A DNA stretch of 36,661 nt, from assembly GCA_945828585.1 (NCBI GenBank), contig CALZRN010000005.1, forward strand, positions 1 to 36,661. Reading direction: 5' to 3'. Both the position numbers and the translations under genes were made by a program. The notes under the pieces were generated by a model that was not told where the DNA came from, ran no database searches, and saw nothing but the letters and a program-made list of their open reading frames with translations. Shown here piece after piece: positions 27,160 to 35,932 of this stretch. Position 1 is the first letter of the stretch. Every line of letters starts with the position of its first letter. This stretch comes from an uncultured Bacteroidales bacterium. Its GTDB lineage: Bacteria; Bacteroidota; Bacteroidia; Bacteroidales; Paludibacteraceae.

Positions 27160-27172
27160 GCCAAGCGTTTTT
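27141..27172 (+). terminator. Intrinsic terminator with the alkaline phosphatase stop codon in the loop
   Basis: AAAAACGCTTGGC-aactaa-GCCAAGCGTTTTT, 13-bp perfect stem; stop codon TAA at 27157-27159 falls in the loop. Confidence 0.92.
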
Positions 27173-27236
27173 CTTGAGGCCTCTGCCTCTCCGTTCCGTC
27201 TCCCGCATCCTCTCGTTCCGCCCCTCTGTGCCCCCT

Positions 27237-27341
27237 CCCGCATCCTTGCGGGCCTATTTCGTCCATTCCGCCGGATGCTATCCGGCACCTCCCGCATCCT
27301 TGCGGTCCCCTCTGTGCATTTCTCGCGCATCCTTGTGCGAG
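27237..27341. repeat. Cluster of four short hairpins sharing a GCATCCTTGC-like core
   Basis: CCCGCA-tcct-TGCGGG (27237-27252), GCCGGAT-gct-ATCCGGC (27270-27286), CCGCA-tcct-TGCGG (27292-27305), CTCGCGCA-tcct-TGTGCGAG (27322-27341). Confidence 0.85.
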
Positions 27342-27350
27342 CCCATACCA

Positions 27351-27380
27351 AACAGCCCTGCCATTTCTGACAGGGTTGTT
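27351..27380. terminator. Second terminator-like hairpin
   Basis: AACAGCCCTG-ccatttctga-CAGGGTTGTT, 10-bp stem with one G-T pair. Confidence 0.55.
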
Positions 27381-27417
27381 AAGTTCATTTCGCCATAAAG
27401 GCGAGATTCGCTAATGA

Positions 27418-27561
27418 TTACAGGTTTTCGCCGGGCACAGAAGGTCCTATGCTACGAGCCGGTGCTGGCTCCGGACCAGAACCGGAATCCAGCAACATCA
27501 CATGTGCATCAGCCAACATAGGCTGCATCTCCATTTTCGGTGTATTATACATCTTTTTCAT
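27418..27561 (-). CDS. Short peptide ORF, 47 aa (MKKxYxxP-type Bacteroidales small peptide)
   Basis: Not in the ORF track (<60 aa). MKKMYNTPKMEMQPMLADAHVMLLDSGSGPEPAPARSIGPSVPGENL*. Start is 25 nt after octamer array B. Confidence 0.7.
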   Translation of the reverse strand: MKKMYNTPKMEMQPMLADAHVMLLDSGSGPEPAPARSIGPSVPGENL

Positions 27562-27585
27562 AATAATTATTGTTTGCGTTGATTA

Positions 27586-27633
27586 TTTCTAGTTGACTAG
27601 TAGACTAGTAGACTAGTTTTCTAGTTGACTATC
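27586..27633 (-). repeat. Octamer array B: 6 units of NCTAGNNN in perfect 8-bp phase
   Basis: Minus strand GATAGTCA|ACTAGAAA|ACTAGTCT|ACTAGTCT|ACTAGTCA|ACTAGAAA; begins inside the stop codon (TGA) of the four-helix gene. Confidence 0.93.
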
Positions 27634-28192
27634 AAAACCCTCTCTTATTCTTCCGAGCGGAAAACATCCGCTCTTTCACGCCGCCCTCGGCTAAGAACTC
27701 CGCCTCTATCTTCTGCAATAATGTCATCAGTCCTTTGTCTGCCTGATGAATCAGCGTCAGAGCTGTATTACAAAAAGTCTCTTTATCCCACTTCTCATAG
27801 TAGGGTGCGTAGTCTTCCACTTCGTTATGCGCCGCGCAGAACTGTAGCATCTTGCCAAATCGTTCGTGGTCGCGCGACCATAATTTCAGGCGGTTGGAGC
27901 GCAACTGGTCTTCGTAGTCTTCGCGCAACTCTTGCAGACTTCCGCGAGCTACATTAACCAAATGCAATCCTGTATCAGTAGATGTCATCTTGTCCTCTAA
28001 ACCCTCAACGATATTCTGCTTGCCGGATCGCGCCGCTTGCTGCATTTGACCGTACGTCCTGTCCGAAGGCTGGAGGTACTTGTCTATATAGTAAATCGTC
28101 ATATCGTATAGAATAACGCTCTTCTTATAGCAGACCAAGTTGCGATACCCTCCCGGATGAATCAGAAACCCGCCAGGGTTTAAAGTAGTCAT
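27632..28192 (-). CDS. Four-helix bundle protein (TIGR02436 / 23S rRNA IVS-protein-like) with suffix domain
   Basis: HPGGYRNLVCYKKSVILYDMTIYYIDKYLQPSDRTYGQMQQAARSGKQNIVEGLEDKMTSTDTGLHLVNVARGSLQELREDYEDQLR matches the four-helix family pattern (RSGKQNIVEG, NVARGSLQEL). Confidence 0.85.
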   Translation of the reverse strand: MTTLNPGGFLIHPGGYRNLVCYKKSVILYDMTIYYIDKYLQPSDRTYGQMQQAARSGKQNIVEGLEDKMTSTDTGLHLVNVARGSLQELREDYEDQLRSNRLKLWSRDHERFGKMLQFCAAHNEVEDYAPYYEKWDKETFCNTALTLIHQADKGLMTLLQKIEAEFLAEGGVKERMFSARKNKRGF

Positions 28193-28204
28193 CTTCGTCG
28201 TGAT

Positions 28205-28300
28205 TTTGTAGTTTTCTAATTTACTAGTCTTCTAGTTGACTAGTCTACTAGCTGACTATCTTTCAAGTTTTCTAGTAGACTAGTTGACTAGCAGACTATC
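28205..28300 (-). repeat. Octamer array A: 12 degenerate units of NCTAGNNN in perfect 8-bp phase
   Basis: Minus strand GATAGTCT|GCTAGTCA|ACTAGTCT|ACTAGAAA|ACTTGAAA|GATAGTCA|GCTAGTAG|ACTAGTCA|ACTAGAAG|ACTAGTAA|ATTAGAAA|ACTACAAA; starts the base after the stop codon of the giant gene. Confidence 0.93.
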
Positions 28301-31300
28301 TTATTTTACCAACTTTCCGGTTACATCATACATCTGCTCAGCGCGGAGGATGTAAACGTGCTCATTGAGGATAACCTTCTGAACGCCAGTCTCATTAGCC
28401 TCTGCATTTTCCACACCGGTGGTTACTTGCGGAGCCTTCTTGACGAGTAACAGGCCATAGCCTTCGTTGTTACCCTTCGCGAAGTCGCTGGTGTATTCGC
28501 CCATCGACAAGTTCCAGATGATTGCGCCGTTCAGCGTCAGGTAGAGATTTGCGTTGTCCATTGCCGGAGCGCTGATCGTGTACTCGCCAGCCTGCGGAGC
28601 GTAGAGCGTCAAGCTATACTCAGCCTGGTCGTTCACCATCGGAGCGTTAACCATACAGAGCTTCATGCCATAAGCTTTTCCGCTGATACGTGCTACCTTC
28701 GGCATCTGGCTCATAAACATCTTCACAAGGTCTTTGTCTTGCTCATACTCATTGAGAGCATCTTCGCTTGCAGAGATATAGAGTTTGTCTTTGGATACTT
28801 CGTTACCGAAGCGTACTGCGACATTCTTTATCTCATAAGCCTTGTTACGAGCTGGAGCATAGATCGTTCCTACTTCGTCCATCGCAACAACACTTGGTGT
28901 ACTTGCTTTGTAGAAGAACGGCAGACCTACAGGAATCGTCATACCCGGAGTAATAGTCACGTACTCATAGGTGTACGGATCCAGATATTGAGCATTGTAA
29001 GCAAACGTACCGCCAATCCATCTCGGGTTACCGAAACCGTTCCAACCCTTGTCGGAATCTTCACCGGTGCCATCATATGCTTTAGCACTCATACTGTTAG
29101 TCTCACTCATTGCGCCGGTTACAGAAGCTTTGAAGCGGAAGGTCTTCGTGTTACCGTCAACCGTCATCAGGTAGAATACACCCGGTTGCAGGATGCCGCG
29201 ATACTTCTTCCAGCCGTATTGACCGTTAGCACGGATGTCACCATGATAATCCATGATTGCATAGTTCACTTCGTTCTGCAGTTTAGCACCTGTCTCAGCA
29301 TCATAGATACCATTGAGAGCGTCCACTGCGAACGGCAGTGAGAATGCGTGCCATTGGTTCGGATCTGCTGGAACACCTGCCATACTGGTACCTAAGGTCA
29401 AGTCATAGATGATCTCTCCGCCGGTAGCCAGAGTGATGTTGGTTACTTCGTCCAACTCGGTAGCTACACCATGGAAGTCACCATTGTTGTCCGTTACACC
29501 CATCGTCGTGGAGAAGTAAACCGTCGGAGTGGTAGTTGCTGCATGAGCAACAATCTTACTACCATCCTCAACTACTACGCTCTCAGCCGTTGTAGGTTGG
29601 TTAACCTCTACAGTAGCACCGTTTTGAGCAGTAATGCTCTGTGCATTAGTCGGCTCGTCAATCGTCAGTGTTATGCCTTCACCGCTTGCAATAATCGCCT
29701 CACCTTCAGTATAACCGAGGTCAGAGATGTTAATAGTTTCAGTTACCACTACTGCCTTACCGAACAGTTGGATATCCTTTTGAGTACCACCGTATGGTTT
29801 GAAGCGCGGGCTACCGCTATTGTACTGGATTCTCTTAGAACTACTGTTAGTAATATGAACATTATTGCCGCTGAAGCTAATCGTCCAAACTGTAGCATTA
29901 GTTTTCGTATCCCACTTCAGGTCATCATTAGAGTTACCGGTAGAAGTCAAGTAGTTTGCACCATCCTTCGTGATCTTCCAGCCGTTCTCAACTTGCTCAA
30001 GGGTCATTATTAGTACATCCTCCGTGTACGTAGCTACACCATCGCTCAAGCTTACACCATTAGTAATCGAAGCCATATACTTGTTGCTGCCGAGGTCACC
30101 TGCCATTGCGAAGGAGTTCTCTCCATAGCTGCAGCCCAGAGCAATTTGCATTCCGTTAGAGAGTGCGCTTGCGCTGGTTACCATCGACATCTTGTTAACA
30201 GGTACGCTTGCCTTTCTCCATTGAGCAACGAACTCAACGGCTTCTGCCGGCATCGTGAACGAAGCACCTGACTTAAACAGCTTGCTGCCGTACTTCCAGC
30301 CTTGGAAGGTATAACCTTCTCTTGCAATAGCTGCAGCAATCGTGAATTGGTCGCCTGCGTACTGTGCAACCTCTGTCGGAGCGTCAGCCGTACTACCGTT
30401 CATATTATAGGTCACAGCATACGTTGAAGCATTTGTCCATTGAGCGGTCAGCGTAATGTCTTCTTCTACCTCACCAATATTTTGATTTGCTTGGTAAATT
30501 GTGGTAGTCTCATTCAGTTTCCATCCTGCAAACTCGCTATGCGACTTCGTCGGAACATTCTCGCAGATGGTGAACTCACTACCCTTATTGATGATAGCAT
30601 TCTGGCAACCGCCTTCACCACCGTTAGCATCGAACGTGATCGTCACCTTCTCTACCGGCGAAGAGGTGTAGTAGGTCTTGCTGGCATCAAATTCTACATC
30701 AATATTGGTTATGATTGCATTACCACCTTTCGGTACGATATAACCTGCCGTTACAGTCTCGCCGGAGAGATCAAGCGTCTGAGAAGCAGCAGCTGTACCG
30801 GATACAATGTATGCGATATTACCGGAACCGCTATAGTCCGAAGCACTCAAGCCTACAGACTTTGTCGTAGAAGTTGTAATAGCGATGCTGAAGATCTTAC
30901 CCGGACAGTTCGGAATCTTAATAGAGGCATCCTTGTCGGTGTTAATCTGCATACCTTTATTCTTGTATGCTTTAACAATCCATTCGCTACCATCCGTAGC
31001 TGTTACATTAACTGCATTCCCGTAACTTAAGTCCTTATCAGCCACATCAGCCGTGTAGTTCAATACATAGTGATTTGTTTCACCCTCTCCTTCTACTCGG
31101 CTATAGATACCATAGAGACTAACCTCTGCGACACCTGTTTGCGGAGTATATTCCGTAATAGTCGTCGGAGCAACTTCCGTCTCTTCTGCTTGCTCAGTAG
31201 TAGCCCAACCTACGAAGGTGAAGCCTGTCGGAGCCCAAGCAGAACCATCTTGTACGATAGTGAACGCTACATCTTGCTCTTTGTCGATAGATGCTTTCTC

Positions 31301-34300
31301 AACGCCTCCTACCATAAACGAGATCTTAGTTGTAGCAATCTCAACCCATGTTGCTGTAATCGTCACAGCCGCAGCCGGCATTGTGATATATTTGCCATTT
31401 GCATCTTCTGCAATCTCAACTGCATCACCGGAAACTGTCTTCGTTACAGCCCAACCGTTGAAACCATGATTGGCCCAGCTATAGGTATTCTCCGGCAGAT
31501 AAACCTTTGATTCTGCCAACTGAGGATCAATAGCTTGAGGAGCCGATCCTTCGGTTGCACCTCCATTTGCAAACGTTACAGAATAACGTGCACGCTCAGC
31601 GATAACATTTACGGTAAACGTTGTGGTCTTCGCGCTATAGTTGATCGAACCACTATTGTTCGTTGCTGCCAAATTCGCTGTGACAGTAGCCTCACCTGCG
31701 CCAGCAGCATGGAGTTTACCCTCAGCAATCGTCACAACTTCTGTATTACTAGATTCGGTCAGTGTAACAACACCATCACCATCCTTTGTGACGCTAAGGT
31801 CAGCAACAGCGATATCTTCTGTTACATTAACCTCCATCTCAGCCACATTAGCAATCGTAAATTGCGGCGCACGGAGTTGATAAACAACCGTCGAGCTCTT
31901 CAACTCCGGAGTTGCGCTGTTGTAATACTGAATCTTACCCTTGACTATTACATCATCGCTTGCTTTCACATTGCCTTTTGCAGACTCACTTGAAGAGAAA
32001 TACTTACCTTGCCAAATCGTAAACTGATTTGTGCTTTTTCCATCTGCAGAGATATAGTAGGTTCCGCTATTATTTGCATCAGCAACTACAATACCTTTCA
32101 CATAGACATCGTAACTCGACTCGTTCGTACTCTTATAAGCATTAACGATAATGTCGTTGATCTCTGCAGCCGTGTAAGCTGTAGCCTGATCGTTAGCAAT
32201 ATCCTTAACAACTACCTTATAAGTAGCACTCTTACCCTTGTATGTTACTGTGATAGTATTTTCACCTGCCTTAGAGTTATCATATGCTGTAGCATCATCA
32301 AACGAAGCCAACTCTGTTACTGGCTCTTCAGGGATATCCTCTACATATGTAGCCGTTACAACCGGTTTAGTTGGTAATGCGTGACCAACATAAGTTATTA
32401 CGCTTTCGTACGACAAACTGATAGAAGCAACCGTCTTGCTGGTATATGTCACAGCAACTACAGTAGCATCACTCGTCTTTCCGCCATACGCTGCCGTTAC
32501 GTTCACATTTCCGGCTGCTGTTACGATATTCTCAGACAGATTTGTACTCCAAACACCATCTTCATTTGTTACATCCTTAACGTAACCTGTATTGTAGGTT
32601 GCAGTAGCCGTCAAGCCTGCGAACGAGAATATATTATCCTCCGATGAGTAAATGGTCTTAGTCGCTTCACCGCCAATAGCGACGCTACTTACACTTGCAA
32701 CGACCAGCGATGTCAGATAACTATTATCCATATCGTAACTGCCTTGGTAGTTATTCAACTTACCAAATACGCGAACCTTATCACCAATCTTCAAATCGGT
32801 CACATCATTAAAGGCAGCATTGTCGAGACCCTTTCCGCTATAGATACGAACCTTAGCACCACCTTCAGCAGAACCATTGTCGGAAATAAAATAGGTCATT
32901 TTACCTTCATTTACTGACGTTCCGGCTGTACAAACAATACCATCGATATACGTATCGGCGCGTTCGTCGTTGTATTTCGGAATAAGAGCAATAGCCTCAG
33001 CAACCGTAAACGGCAGGCTGATGTTATATGTAGCCTCAGCAACGTCCGAAGCCTCTTTTCCTTCTTCTACTGCATAAGCCTTGACAGTGTAAGTACCGCG
33101 CTCTTTGAGTTCGATTGCTGCCGAATAAGTTTGCTTGGTGCCTGAAGTCTTAGGATCAGAACCATCTAATGTATAATAGATTGTTGCACCATCTTCAGCT
33201 AACATCTCAACAGTCTTAGTTGCATCGAATATTCCACCGTCAGTTAAAACGGGAGTAGTTGCTTTCTGCAAACAAGTTGTTGAGTAATTGCCATAAACAG
33301 GATCAGAAACGGTTTTCTTATAGAAAGCAAGTGTCTGACCACTAATATTGTTACTAATAGATGCATAGCAACGGAAATCCAGTTTATCGGCATAAACTCC
33401 TAAATAACGACCTGTCGTTTGGATATTATATAAGTAACTCTTGTCAATTTTAAAGTTCTTATTGTCTCCAGTACCAACGCGCACGCCATCATTGGCAGTT
33501 GTACAATACAGCCACTTATTTGTTACACCCTTAGGATAGAGCACAAAATTTTCTCCATCCTTAACGATATCCCAAAGAATACTGTCTGCCGGAGAAGCGA
33601 TTTCATCGTTTTCGTCTGTTACTTCTACAGCAGCAGGACCTGCACTTGTGCCTTTATTATTGGACATTGCCCAAGTTGTGGTTTCTGCAGCGACTGTTTT
33701 AGATTCAGTAACGATTACAACGCTTCCACTTTCGATTTCACCCAAAGCAGTCTTTACATAACTCGTAACACCTGCGCTAACTACACTTGCATAAACTGCA
33801 TAGATATGATTCTCACCCTTATTCGGCAGAACGTAAGTAGCGCCCAACTCAGGAGCCGTATTACAATTCTCGTCAGTACTCCAACCCATAAACTCCTTAC
33901 TGCAAGAAGCAGCAGATGTCGGCAGAGTTACTTCTTCTTTCCAATAGTGTGTATTCTCGCTATCGAACGTACTTTCTCCATTCGCATCGTGCAGTTTTAG
34001 TACTGCTACCTCATGGGTGTACGTTACTTCTACCATCACCTCATTATCAGGCATCGTGAACGAACAAGTCGTCTTGTCTTGCGAAACCGAATAGTCTGCA
34101 CCAACTACCGTCCATTCGCTGATCGAATAACCATCATTCGGAGTAGCGGTCAGTACTACTGCTACATCTTTCAATACGTCAGCAATATCAATTACTTCAT
34201 CATCCGAGGTAGCTACCACCGTACCATTTGCACTGGTGATACCAATTTCGTGTCCGCTCGGAGCAGTAACGGTAACTGCACAAGTAGCAGTAACAGTACC

Positions 34301-35932
34301 GGTAACAACCGAAGTAGCGGTAATAGTTGCGGTTCCTTCACCCATTGCTAGTACCGCACCGTCCTCATCTACCATCACTACACCCTGATCGTCAGAATAC
34401 CAAGTAACACCGTTATATGCATCAGCCGGTTCAACTGCCGTTACGCTCAAAGCATCTTCTGCTTCAACCAACAACTCCAACTCTGTCTTATTCAGTGTCA
34501 AGCCTGTTACAGGAATATACTCAAAGGTTGCTGCAATAGCAACATCAGAAGACGGCATCGTAAACGAATATACACCTTGTACAGGAGTAATAGCCTGTCC
34601 GCCTTGCGTTACCGATGCGATTTGATAGTACGTACTTGCTGTCGGAGTAATAGTTACCGTCGCACCTTCTTCAACTTGATCGCCCGAACTAATATCCGAT
34701 CCGCCTACACTAACAGCAACCGAACCTCCCGTCGGAGCACCATTAAATGTTACAGAGTGCTTCGGCAACGCTTTTTTGTAAAGAGTTAATGCCCCGCCGA
34801 TACTACTCGCATAGCAAGCAAAACCAAAAGTTCCATTGTTGCGTAACCATTTTTTGTCACGATCTGACGTAGCAGCGGCACGACCTTTATTCTCAAAATC
34901 GTATGTTGAGCTTCCACTTGCAGTCCAAAGAGCAAAATCTGCAGTTCCTGCATCAAGTAAAGCACCTTGACTCTTTGAAGATGTACCAGCCGCATATTTC
35001 TTAACAGCTGCATTATAAATCGTCCAGTAATCACCGCTTGCAGCAATATGCCAGATAATTGCCTCGTCAGGATTAGTAAGTTTGGCATTTTCAGGGCTTA
35101 CCTCTAAATAGTCAAAGCGACTAGTAGTAATAGTATTTTTCAGTGCTTTACCGCTATAGTAGATTACATAATCACCTTCCACCAAATCACCGGAGAATAA
35201 TGCAAATGTTCCCGTCGGCTCCGAAACTTTCACAGCAGCAAAGCCGGAAGTTGCCGAACCATTATCATCCGTTACAACACAATAGTAATATGTCGTACCG
35301 GCACTTGTCGTCAAAGGGGTGTAGCTAGCATCTGTTCCTACGATCGATGCTCCTTCTGTACTCTTCGTCGTATTGCTATACCACTGATAATGCAAATCAC
35401 CAGCAGATGCCGTTGCTTCTACTGTCAATGCTGTAGCCGATTCTCCAACCACATAATTTGCATCTACTGGGTCTGTAGAAATGGTCGGATTTGCGGGACC
35501 ACCCGGTACTTCTTCCAACCAAACATTAAGTTGACCACTAGAATAGGATCCAAAATTTGCTGTATTAGTTTGGGAATTACATTTCAAACAATAGTTGTTA
35601 ATTTTTAATTGAAGCAAATTAGATGAGTTTGTTATAGCCCAATTAGCTGCGCTTGCAACTACATCGACTTTGCCATTTGCTTTAGAACTTGCTAAGGAAA
35701 GATAGTTTCCACTTTCGAACTGAATACTCCAATTGTCGCCAGATTTTGTAAAAGTAAACACTTCCGCATCTGTTTTGTTTGTTACGGCAGAACCCTGCTT
35801 GCCAGTTGCGGCGGAAGCCCCATGATCAGCTACCGACAAATAATAATCAGTGCTATTGGATTTTGTAGCACCAATGTAATACTTCTTTCCACTTTGAATG
35901 TTTGAGACCGAAGTAATTTTGGCTCCCCACAT
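28301..35932 (-). CDS. Giant multidomain secreted/surface protein (Ig-like, Listeria-Bacteroides repeats, OB-fold-like and CHB_HEX_C-like modules); true start probably ATG at 35988 but out of frame by one base
   Basis: 2543 aa from MWGAKITSV; contains VTITFDANGGEGG...FAGW...LTAQW, ATIYYTLDGSDPKTSGTKQTYSAAIEL, Big_2-like GVTWYSDDQGVVMVDEDGAVLAMGEGTATITATS; C-terminus VQKVILNEHVYILRAEQMYDVTGKLVK. Confidence 0.88.
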   Translation of the reverse strand: MWGAKITSVSNIQSGKKYYIGATKSNSTDYYLSVADHGASAATGKQGSAVTNKTDAEVFTFTKSGDNWSIQFESGNYLSLASSKANGKVDVVASAANWAITNSSNLLQLKINNYCLKCNSQTNTANFGSYSSGQLNVWLEEVPGGPANPTISTDPVDANYVVGESATALTVEATASAGDLHYQWYSNTTKSTEGASIVGTDASYTPLTTSAGTTYYYCVVTDDNGSATSGFAAVKVSEPTGTFALFSGDLVEGDYVIYYSGKALKNTITTSRFDYLEVSPENAKLTNPDEAIIWHIAASGDYWTIYNAAVKKYAAGTSSKSQGALLDAGTADFALWTASGSSTYDFENKGRAAATSDRDKKWLRNNGTFGFACYASSIGGALTLYKKALPKHSVTFNGAPTGGSVAVSVGGSDISSGDQVEEGATVTITPTASTYYQIASVTQGGQAITPVQGVYSFTMPSSDVAIAATFEYIPVTGLTLNKTELELLVEAEDALSVTAVEPADAYNGVTWYSDDQGVVMVDEDGAVLAMGEGTATITATSVVTGTVTATCAVTVTAPSGHEIGITSANGTVVATSDDEVIDIADVLKDVAVVLTATPNDGYSISEWTVVGADYSVSQDKTTCSFTMPDNEVMVEVTYTHEVAVLKLHDANGESTFDSENTHYWKEEVTLPTSAASCSKEFMGWSTDENCNTAPELGATYVLPNKGENHIYAVYASVVSAGVTSYVKTALGEIESGSVVIVTESKTVAAETTTWAMSNNKGTSAGPAAVEVTDENDEIASPADSILWDIVKDGENFVLYPKGVTNKWLYCTTANDGVRVGTGDNKNFKIDKSYLYNIQTTGRYLGVYADKLDFRCYASISNNISGQTLAFYKKTVSDPVYGNYSTTCLQKATTPVLTDGGIFDATKTVEMLAEDGATIYYTLDGSDPKTSGTKQTYSAAIELKERGTYTVKAYAVEEGKEASDVAEATYNISLPFTVAEAIALIPKYNDERADTYIDGIVCTAGTSVNEGKMTYFISDNGSAEGGAKVRIYSGKGLDNAAFNDVTDLKIGDKVRVFGKLNNYQGSYDMDNSYLTSLVVASVSSVAIGGEATKTIYSSEDNIFSFAGLTATATYNTGYVKDVTNEDGVWSTNLSENIVTAAGNVNVTAAYGGKTSDATVVAVTYTSKTVASISLSYESVITYVGHALPTKPVVTATYVEDIPEEPVTELASFDDATAYDNSKAGENTITVTYKGKSATYKVVVKDIANDQATAYTAAEINDIIVNAYKSTNESSYDVYVKGIVVADANNSGTYYISADGKSTNQFTIWQGKYFSSSESAKGNVKASDDVIVKGKIQYYNSATPELKSSTVVYQLRAPQFTIANVAEMEVNVTEDIAVADLSVTKDGDGVVTLTESSNTEVVTIAEGKLHAAGAGEATVTANLAATNNSGSINYSAKTTTFTVNVIAERARYSVTFANGGATEGSAPQAIDPQLAESKVYLPENTYSWANHGFNGWAVTKTVSGDAVEIAEDANGKYITMPAAAVTITATWVEIATTKISFMVGGVEKASIDKEQDVAFTIVQDGSAWAPTGFTFVGWATTEQAEETEVAPTTITEYTPQTGVAEVSLYGIYSRVEGEGETNHYVLNYTADVADKDLSYGNAVNVTATDGSEWIVKAYKNKGMQINTDKDASIKIPNCPGKIFSIAITTSTTKSVGLSASDYSGSGNIAYIVSGTAAASQTLDLSGETVTAGYIVPKGGNAIITNIDVEFDASKTYYTSSPVEKVTITFDANGGEGGCQNAIINKGSEFTICENVPTKSHSEFAGWKLNETTTIYQANQNIGEVEEDITLTAQWTNASTYAVTYNMNGSTADAPTEVAQYAGDQFTIAAAIAREGYTFQGWKYGSKLFKSGASFTMPAEAVEFVAQWRKASVPVNKMSMVTSASALSNGMQIALGCSYGENSFAMAGDLGSNKYMASITNGVSLSDGVATYTEDVLIMTLEQVENGWKITKDGANYLTSTGNSNDDLKWDTKTNATVWTISFSGNNVHITNSSSKRIQYNSGSPRFKPYGGTQKDIQLFGKAVVVTETINISDLGYTEGEAIIASGEGITLTIDEPTNAQSITAQNGATVEVNQPTTAESVVVEDGSKIVAHAATTTPTVYFSTTMGVTDNNGDFHGVATELDEVTNITLATGGEIIYDLTLGTSMAGVPADPNQWHAFSLPFAVDALNGIYDAETGAKLQNEVNYAIMDYHGDIRANGQYGWKKYRGILQPGVFYLMTVDGNTKTFRFKASVTGAMSETNSMSAKAYDGTGEDSDKGWNGFGNPRWIGGTFAYNAQYLDPYTYEYVTITPGMTIPVGLPFFYKASTPSVVAMDEVGTIYAPARNKAYEIKNVAVRFGNEVSKDKLYISASEDALNEYEQDKDLVKMFMSQMPKVARISGKAYGMKLCMVNAPMVNDQAEYSLTLYAPQAGEYTISAPAMDNANLYLTLNGAIIWNLSMGEYTSDFAKGNNEGYGLLLVKKAPQVTTGVENAEANETGVQKVILNEHVYILRAEQMYDVTGKLVK

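Follow-up and report, generated by a model that had tools for sequence, protein, structure and literature searches.

A 36,661-nt stretch of DNA from an uncultured Bacteroidales bacterium of the Paludibacteraceae (contig CALZRN010000005.1 of assembly GCA_945828585.1; this whole stretch is called the window here) carries a small gene for a four-helix-bundle protein between two arrays of tandem 8-bp units. Do the gene and the arrays belong together, and if so, as what kind of unit? An initial annotation, made from the sequence alone, had raised the idea of an inserted cassette, or else of arrays that serve the protein as target or partner. That hunch was largely right, as both the co-occurrence of such arrays with related genes and the existence of empty sites support it. 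We consider it likely, with a probability of about 0.7, that the gene and its two arrays form a single insertion element built as arm, gene and arm.

A four-helix-bundle gene between two octamer arrays

All parts of the element are read on the minus strand. The upstream arm, array A (28205..28300), consists of 12 units of 8 bp, NCTAGNNN. Read from 28300 to 28205, its first base directly follows the TAA (at 28301) of a 2543-aa open reading frame (ORF), and 12 bp separate its end from the ATG of the four-helix gene. This gene (27632..28192) encodes a 186-aa four-helix-bundle suffix protein of the TIGR04258 family, and the downstream arm, array B (27586..27633, 6 units of 8 bp), opens on the G of its TGA. 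Both arrays begin with GATAGTC. Their positions, lengths and shared opening are thus as first annotated. They had also been described as perfectly phased, which holds for the 8-bp register, exact across A and B, but not for the CTAG core, which is exact in only 12 of the 18 units (7/12 in A and 5/6 in B) and reads ATAG, CTTG, TTAG or CTAC in the others. The period-8 score is 0.72 for array A and 0.75 for array B. A chance origin of these arrays is excluded, because the triplet CTAGn4CTAGn4CTAG occurs 72 times in the host genome and the reversed control pattern not at all.

The 186-aa protein passes the curated cut-off of TIGR04258 (58.7 bits vs 40) and stays below those of TIGR02436 (23.1 vs 24) and PF05635 (24.5 vs 33.8). 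The best Foldseek matches of its AlphaFold model (pLDDT 84.5) are 2GSC and 2RLD, with target-normalised TM-scores of 0.80 and 0.73 and E-values of only 0.01-0.06. As modelled, the protein has the S23 four-helix fold, common to the S23 proteins (PF05635/TIGR02436) and to Avd, the accessory protein of diversity-generating retroelements; a published alignment connects 2GSC with Avd (PMC10053308). The window protein differs from both in its sub-threshold scores for these families and its TIGR04258 suffix, and a scan of 17 window proteins, the large neighbours of 19-36 kb among them, found no reverse transcriptase. In the domain scan, a PF05635-type domain was the only one detected in the protein, with no catalytic domain and no HUH transposase. 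Searches of the locus against PADLOC (anti-phage defence) and PHROG gave no match, nor did Rfam within 27300-28500, and the 8-bp units do not form the repeats of at least 20 bp with unique spacers that mark a CRISPR array.

Flanking arrays recur around related genes in many phyla

Within the genus, tandem arrays with a period of 8, 9 or 10 bp accompany nearly all TIGR04258 genes. Under a strict test in which the array score on each side had to exceed the 95th percentile of control genes, both arms pass at 63% of 67 TIGR04258 loci, compared to 1% of 104 same-genus control genes, and at least one arm passes at 94% of the loci. A scan for the CTAG octamer found both flanks occupied in many genes of the ~186-aa subfamily and in none of the other TIGR04258 subfamilies. 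A motif-free periodicity test revealed that these other subfamilies have arrays of period 9 or 10 with cores of their own, including CTAGn5, CTTAAWGAC, TCCAGAAAT, CTCCGAGnnn and GCCTAnnnnn. We therefore rejected the reading of the strict scan, that most TIGR04258 genes lack arrays, as an artefact of its fixed motif and period. The pairing of octamer array and four-helix gene that was first noted holds in the window, but the octamer represents just one of many kinds of unit, with periods from 7 to 10 and many motifs. Upstream and downstream periods are equal in 31 of 33 TIGR04258 loci, and the period tracks the protein tree (8 changes vs 24 with shuffled labels). The host genome has only three TIGR04258 genes, with arrays of period 8 (window), 9 (contig 1) and 10 (contig 43).

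Canonical S23 genes have the same architecture. We sampled 42 loci, comprising 30 PF05635 loci across Bacteroidota and others from genomes named as Planctomycetaceae, Kiritimatiellae, Anaerolineae, Yanofskybacteria and Scytonema, together with 300 control genes. The S23 flanks are periodic only at 7 and 8 bp (with their multiples, and weakly at 9), and the control genes are flat. The signal is strong both within Bacteroidota (p = 4.5e-12 upstream and 3.6e-11 downstream vs controls) and outside (p = 2.8e-6 and 3.2e-5, respectively). Additionally, period 7 is enriched on both sides of 22 cyanobacterial S23 loci (p = 5.8e-7 and 2.4e-7, against 166 cyanobacterial controls), with both arms passing in 59% of these loci and 0% of controls. 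In Lishizhenia, a 118-aa S23-type gene lies between CTAG octamer arrays, with fadB-like and thiolase-like genes outside. We conclude that the arm-gene-arm architecture recurs across many bacterial phyla, with different repeats each time.

The two arms of an element match each other

The arms of canonical S23 genes are inverted copies of one another (local score 28.5 vs 17.1 in controls, p = 1.9e-11), direct copies not being enriched, and the inverted match is strongest in cyanobacteria (55.1 vs 17.2). TIGR04258 arms are direct copies (45.5 vs 17.0, p = 2.6e-19). Their unit cores are often palindromic (CTAG, TTAA, TCCGGA, CTATAG), so that the direct arms are complementary as well. The two groups thus differ in handedness, inverted in canonical S23 and direct with palindromic cores in TIGR04258. 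In a mononucleotide-shuffle test, the predicted RNA duplex between the arms has mean z-scores of -2.0 and -3.6 in the two groups, compared to -0.15 in controls, and arrays A and B of the window are predicted to pair with z = -8.2 and -40.9 kcal/mol.

The match also persists as the motif changes. Among S23 genes lying between nuoC and nuoD in one Bacteroidota family, the motif varies by species, and the two arms of the same element score higher against each other than arms from different species (31.3 vs 20.2, permutation p = 5e-5). A common cause is required for two distant arrays to change in step: the arms may be selected to pair, one protein may bind both, or one arm may be copied from its partner.

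Arrays also occur without a gene

The link between array and gene is real but not exclusive, as arrays stand alone at other sites of the host genome. Across 300 sampled genomes of the family, the CTAG-octamer pattern is frequent in the genus of the window, with hardly any instances in the remaining 32 genera. We read at least 17 further arrays in the host genome, most of which fill gene junctions, usually between co-directional genes, starting at or over a stop codon and finishing just 5' of a start codon. Because TIGR04258 genes number only three there, most of these arrays are gene-less. Still, the scattered octamers follow the gene: genomes with a period-8 gene have a median of 15 CTAG octamer triplets vs 2 in those without (p = 2e-4), and triplets are lacking in 0 of 16 such genomes and 17 of 41 others, which agrees with the co-occurrence proposed at the outset. 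Scattered units are also closest to the gene arms of their own genome (best of 120 assignments over five genomes), a small comparison to which base composition may contribute.

Period-9 CTAG arrays are likewise scattered in the host genome (G000; contigs 1, 2, 18 and 26), with 97 triplets vs 1 for the control. On its contig 1, an acyl-CoA-ligase-like gene adjoining the period-9 copy (L019:1510-3189) holds two in-frame period-9 arrays coding for (SET)n/(ASS)n linkers. Most orthologs of this gene lack arrays, and several have heptamer arrays of the CAAATCAC type in those two loops.

Two alternatives need no element. The CTAG arrays might be junction spacers unrelated to the four-helix gene, serving as three-frame TAG stops or mRNA insulators. 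An 8-bp unit does give TAG in all three frames per 24 bp, and many arrays begin at a stop codon. However, other loci use stop-less units (CTCCGAG, GCCTA) and the frame-keeping period 9, and the two arrays in the ligase-like gene are translated, so that the variants already disfavour this idea and we regard it as very improbable. Neutral repeats, grown by slippage wherever they are tolerated (in junctions or protein loops) and with S23 genes merely persisting among them, would account for the variable length of the arrays and for the several array kinds found in the same two loops across species. This explanation is also improbable, if less so, since control genes of the same genomes are almost without such arrays, and since the arms of an element share motif and period and stay complementary as the motif changes; slippage does not maintain such a match between separated arrays.

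Occupied sites, empty sites and transfer between species

The nearest relatives that we found of the window's genome, G193 and G169 (ParC 97% and 96% identical), keep its gene order: ParC, DprA, UPRT, ..., alkaline phosphatase, small ORF and surface gene. In the window, 739 bp lie between surface gene and small ORF, and in four further species with the gene this junction measures 675-752 bp. In the two sister species it is 39 and 38 bp long, without four-helix gene or arrays, so the empty site expected for an inserted cassette was indeed found. A cleaner case of presence and absence comes from the nuoC-nuoD junction, where an S23 gene with its arms is present in 11 genomes (462-605 bp), the site is empty in 15 genomes of the same family (29-60 bp), and remains of array or gene persist in 2 or 3. 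Three genomes of a single genus show both states: G367 and G460 carry the S23 unit, and G530, although its NuoD segment is 96% identical, does not. Locus L028 of the host genome was considered as a pre-insertion site and rejected, as it carries a remnant: comparison with L235 and L236 reveals the six 3'-terminal codons and the downstream array of a copy that has been lost.

TIGR04258 proteins show 94-99% identity between species that share 74-90% in ParC. The pair G289/G256 has 99.5% identity in the TIGR04258 protein vs 79% in ParC, G021/G272 has 98.9% vs 79.7%, and the window protein is 94.6% identical to its relative in G021, with ParC at 79.5%. Such near-identity across species shows transfer. 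Single cases could be binning errors, because some of the genomes are draft metagenome assemblies, but such errors do not readily account for a trend over many pairs. Near-identical four-helix-suffix genes also appear across clearly different species at loci L016/L080/L082/L079 and L072/L073/L077, which suggests that they moved recently.

A resident regulator offers a further explanation. In this case, a DNA- or RNA-binding protein would control itself through the flanking arrays, the scattered arrays would be its regulon, and mobility would be unnecessary. In favour of this reading, transcribed junctions and 5' leaders are where the arrays are found, just after stops or before starts, the unit type tracks the protein lineage, and scattered arrays are most similar to the gene arms of their own genome. 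We nevertheless find it unlikely, albeit the least so of the alternatives, because arms stand on both sides of the gene, including after its stop, the unit is absent from orthologous operons, and the proteins are far more similar between species than ParC.

A model of the element

An insertion element would combine these features in the following way. Its matching short-period arms would let the transcript, or one DNA strand, fold with the gene inside the loop. Elements of this kind sit between protein genes, usually reaching from the stop codon of one to just before the next start codon; they are gained and lost at constant positions and move from one species to another. The most likely role of the four-helix protein is to bind the arms of its own element and to give them their specificity; it is the candidate arm-binder because the length and motif of the unit go with the protein lineage, with both arms changing together. 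Gene-less arrays would most simply be solo arms or element remains. Excision may occur at the RNA level, and movement could proceed through recombination between arrays, or through a single-stranded hairpin on which host enzymes act.

Several observations weigh against this interpretation. The pairing of the arms is computed, and palindromic-core arrays also pair with themselves. Gene-less arrays outnumber the genes, and the element encodes no recombinase, nuclease or reverse transcriptase. The nuoC-nuoD pattern could partly be explained by repeated loss after one old insertion. In addition, the surface gene and small ORF of the window have diverged from their sister-species counterparts, so that the window by itself does not tell an inserted unit from an exchanged larger block, a distinction that the nuoC-nuoD junction does allow.

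A broader proposal is that of a widespread mobile class without a transposase, in which a non-enzymatic four-helix protein recognises the arms, both arms are rewritten jointly whenever the unit changes, the cyanobacterial heptamers and TAACTGA repeats of Beggiatoa are solo arms, and the rRNA intervening sequences occupy one site of many. We advance this tentatively, at somewhat less than even odds.

Relation to known systems

REP elements and their RAYT genes offer one precedent, a gene with repeats on both sides, copies of which are scattered between genes as well. RAYTs belong to the HUH transposases, and REPs are 20-40 bp palindromes; the scattered flanking repeats are alike in the window, and neither the transposase nor palindromes of that length apply to it. 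Closer to the window, S23-encoding intervening sequences interrupt the 23S rRNA of some bacteria. In those of Coxiella and Leptospira, as in the window's element, a related four-helix gene is the sole ORF of a short insertion, and the end-pairing stem with the ORF in its loop is found in the window by computation. The window element differs in lying between protein genes instead of within a 23S rRNA gene, and in having arrays on both sides, of period 8, with direct units and a palindromic core. The Coxiella intervening sequence is excised by RNase III and has tandem GACAGAT heptamers directly 5' of its S23 start codon (PMC4990558).

Scattered short-period junction arrays have themselves been described, as TAACTGA heptamer direct repeats in Beggiatoaceae, cyanobacteria and Bacteroidetes and as the short tandemly repeated repetitive (STRR) sequences of cyanobacteria, often just 5' of start codons and without a known mechanism (PMC4679880). 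Heptamer arms of that type flank the cyanobacterial S23 genes of our analysis, and we found no link between such repeats and S23 genes in the literature. In the open-access literature, S23 genes are tied to such arrays only through the Coxiella heptamers; subscription journals lay largely outside the search, and any claim of novelty is provisional. With this proviso, S23 insertions in rRNA and short-period junction arrays (PMC4679880) were already known, and their union as one intergenic element appears to be new.

The S23-array element may prove to be a new class, and it looks widespread, mobile and largely overlooked. Our results suggest that the rRNA intervening sequences represent a special case of an intergenic element of general occurrence, and they point to DNA that spreads without a recognised recombinase. 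S23 proteins were described decades ago, and to our knowledge no function has been assigned to them. Tying them to the arrays gives a testable explanation both for these proteins and for junction arrays that have been described repeatedly without a cause.

Neighbouring genes and other repeats

Both neighbours of the element are minus-strand host genes outside it. Upstream lies the 2543-aa ORF (28301..35932), a repeat-rich surface protein with the C-terminus ...MYDVTGKLVK; similar C-termini precede the element at L221, L224, L226 and L234. The downstream neighbour (27418..27561) is a 47-aa ORF beginning MKKMYNTP..., and belongs to a family of small MKKxYxxP ORFs (~47-60 aa) found directly 3' of surface genes ending GEKMYDxxGxLVK.

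Dispersed hairpin-like repeats, GCCGGATxxxATCCGGC, CGCAAGGATGCG, occur 3' of the alkaline phosphatase gene in the window (27170-27400) and at L492:11350-11975, and have multiplied in the sister species G169. In G193, the alkaline phosphatase gene is separated from the small ORF by two further small ORFs (L493:8880-9522) that resemble an MNT/HEPN toxin-antitoxin pair by eye.

Perfect (CTAGAAAA)n octamer runs in Vibrio and Rhodobacteraceae were set aside as unrelated and probably ordinary microsatellites, because no PF05635 gene is present in the Vibrio genome tested. Long perfect runs of this type were seen in Vibrio and Alphaproteobacteria at L118, L119, L138, L170, L173 and L181.
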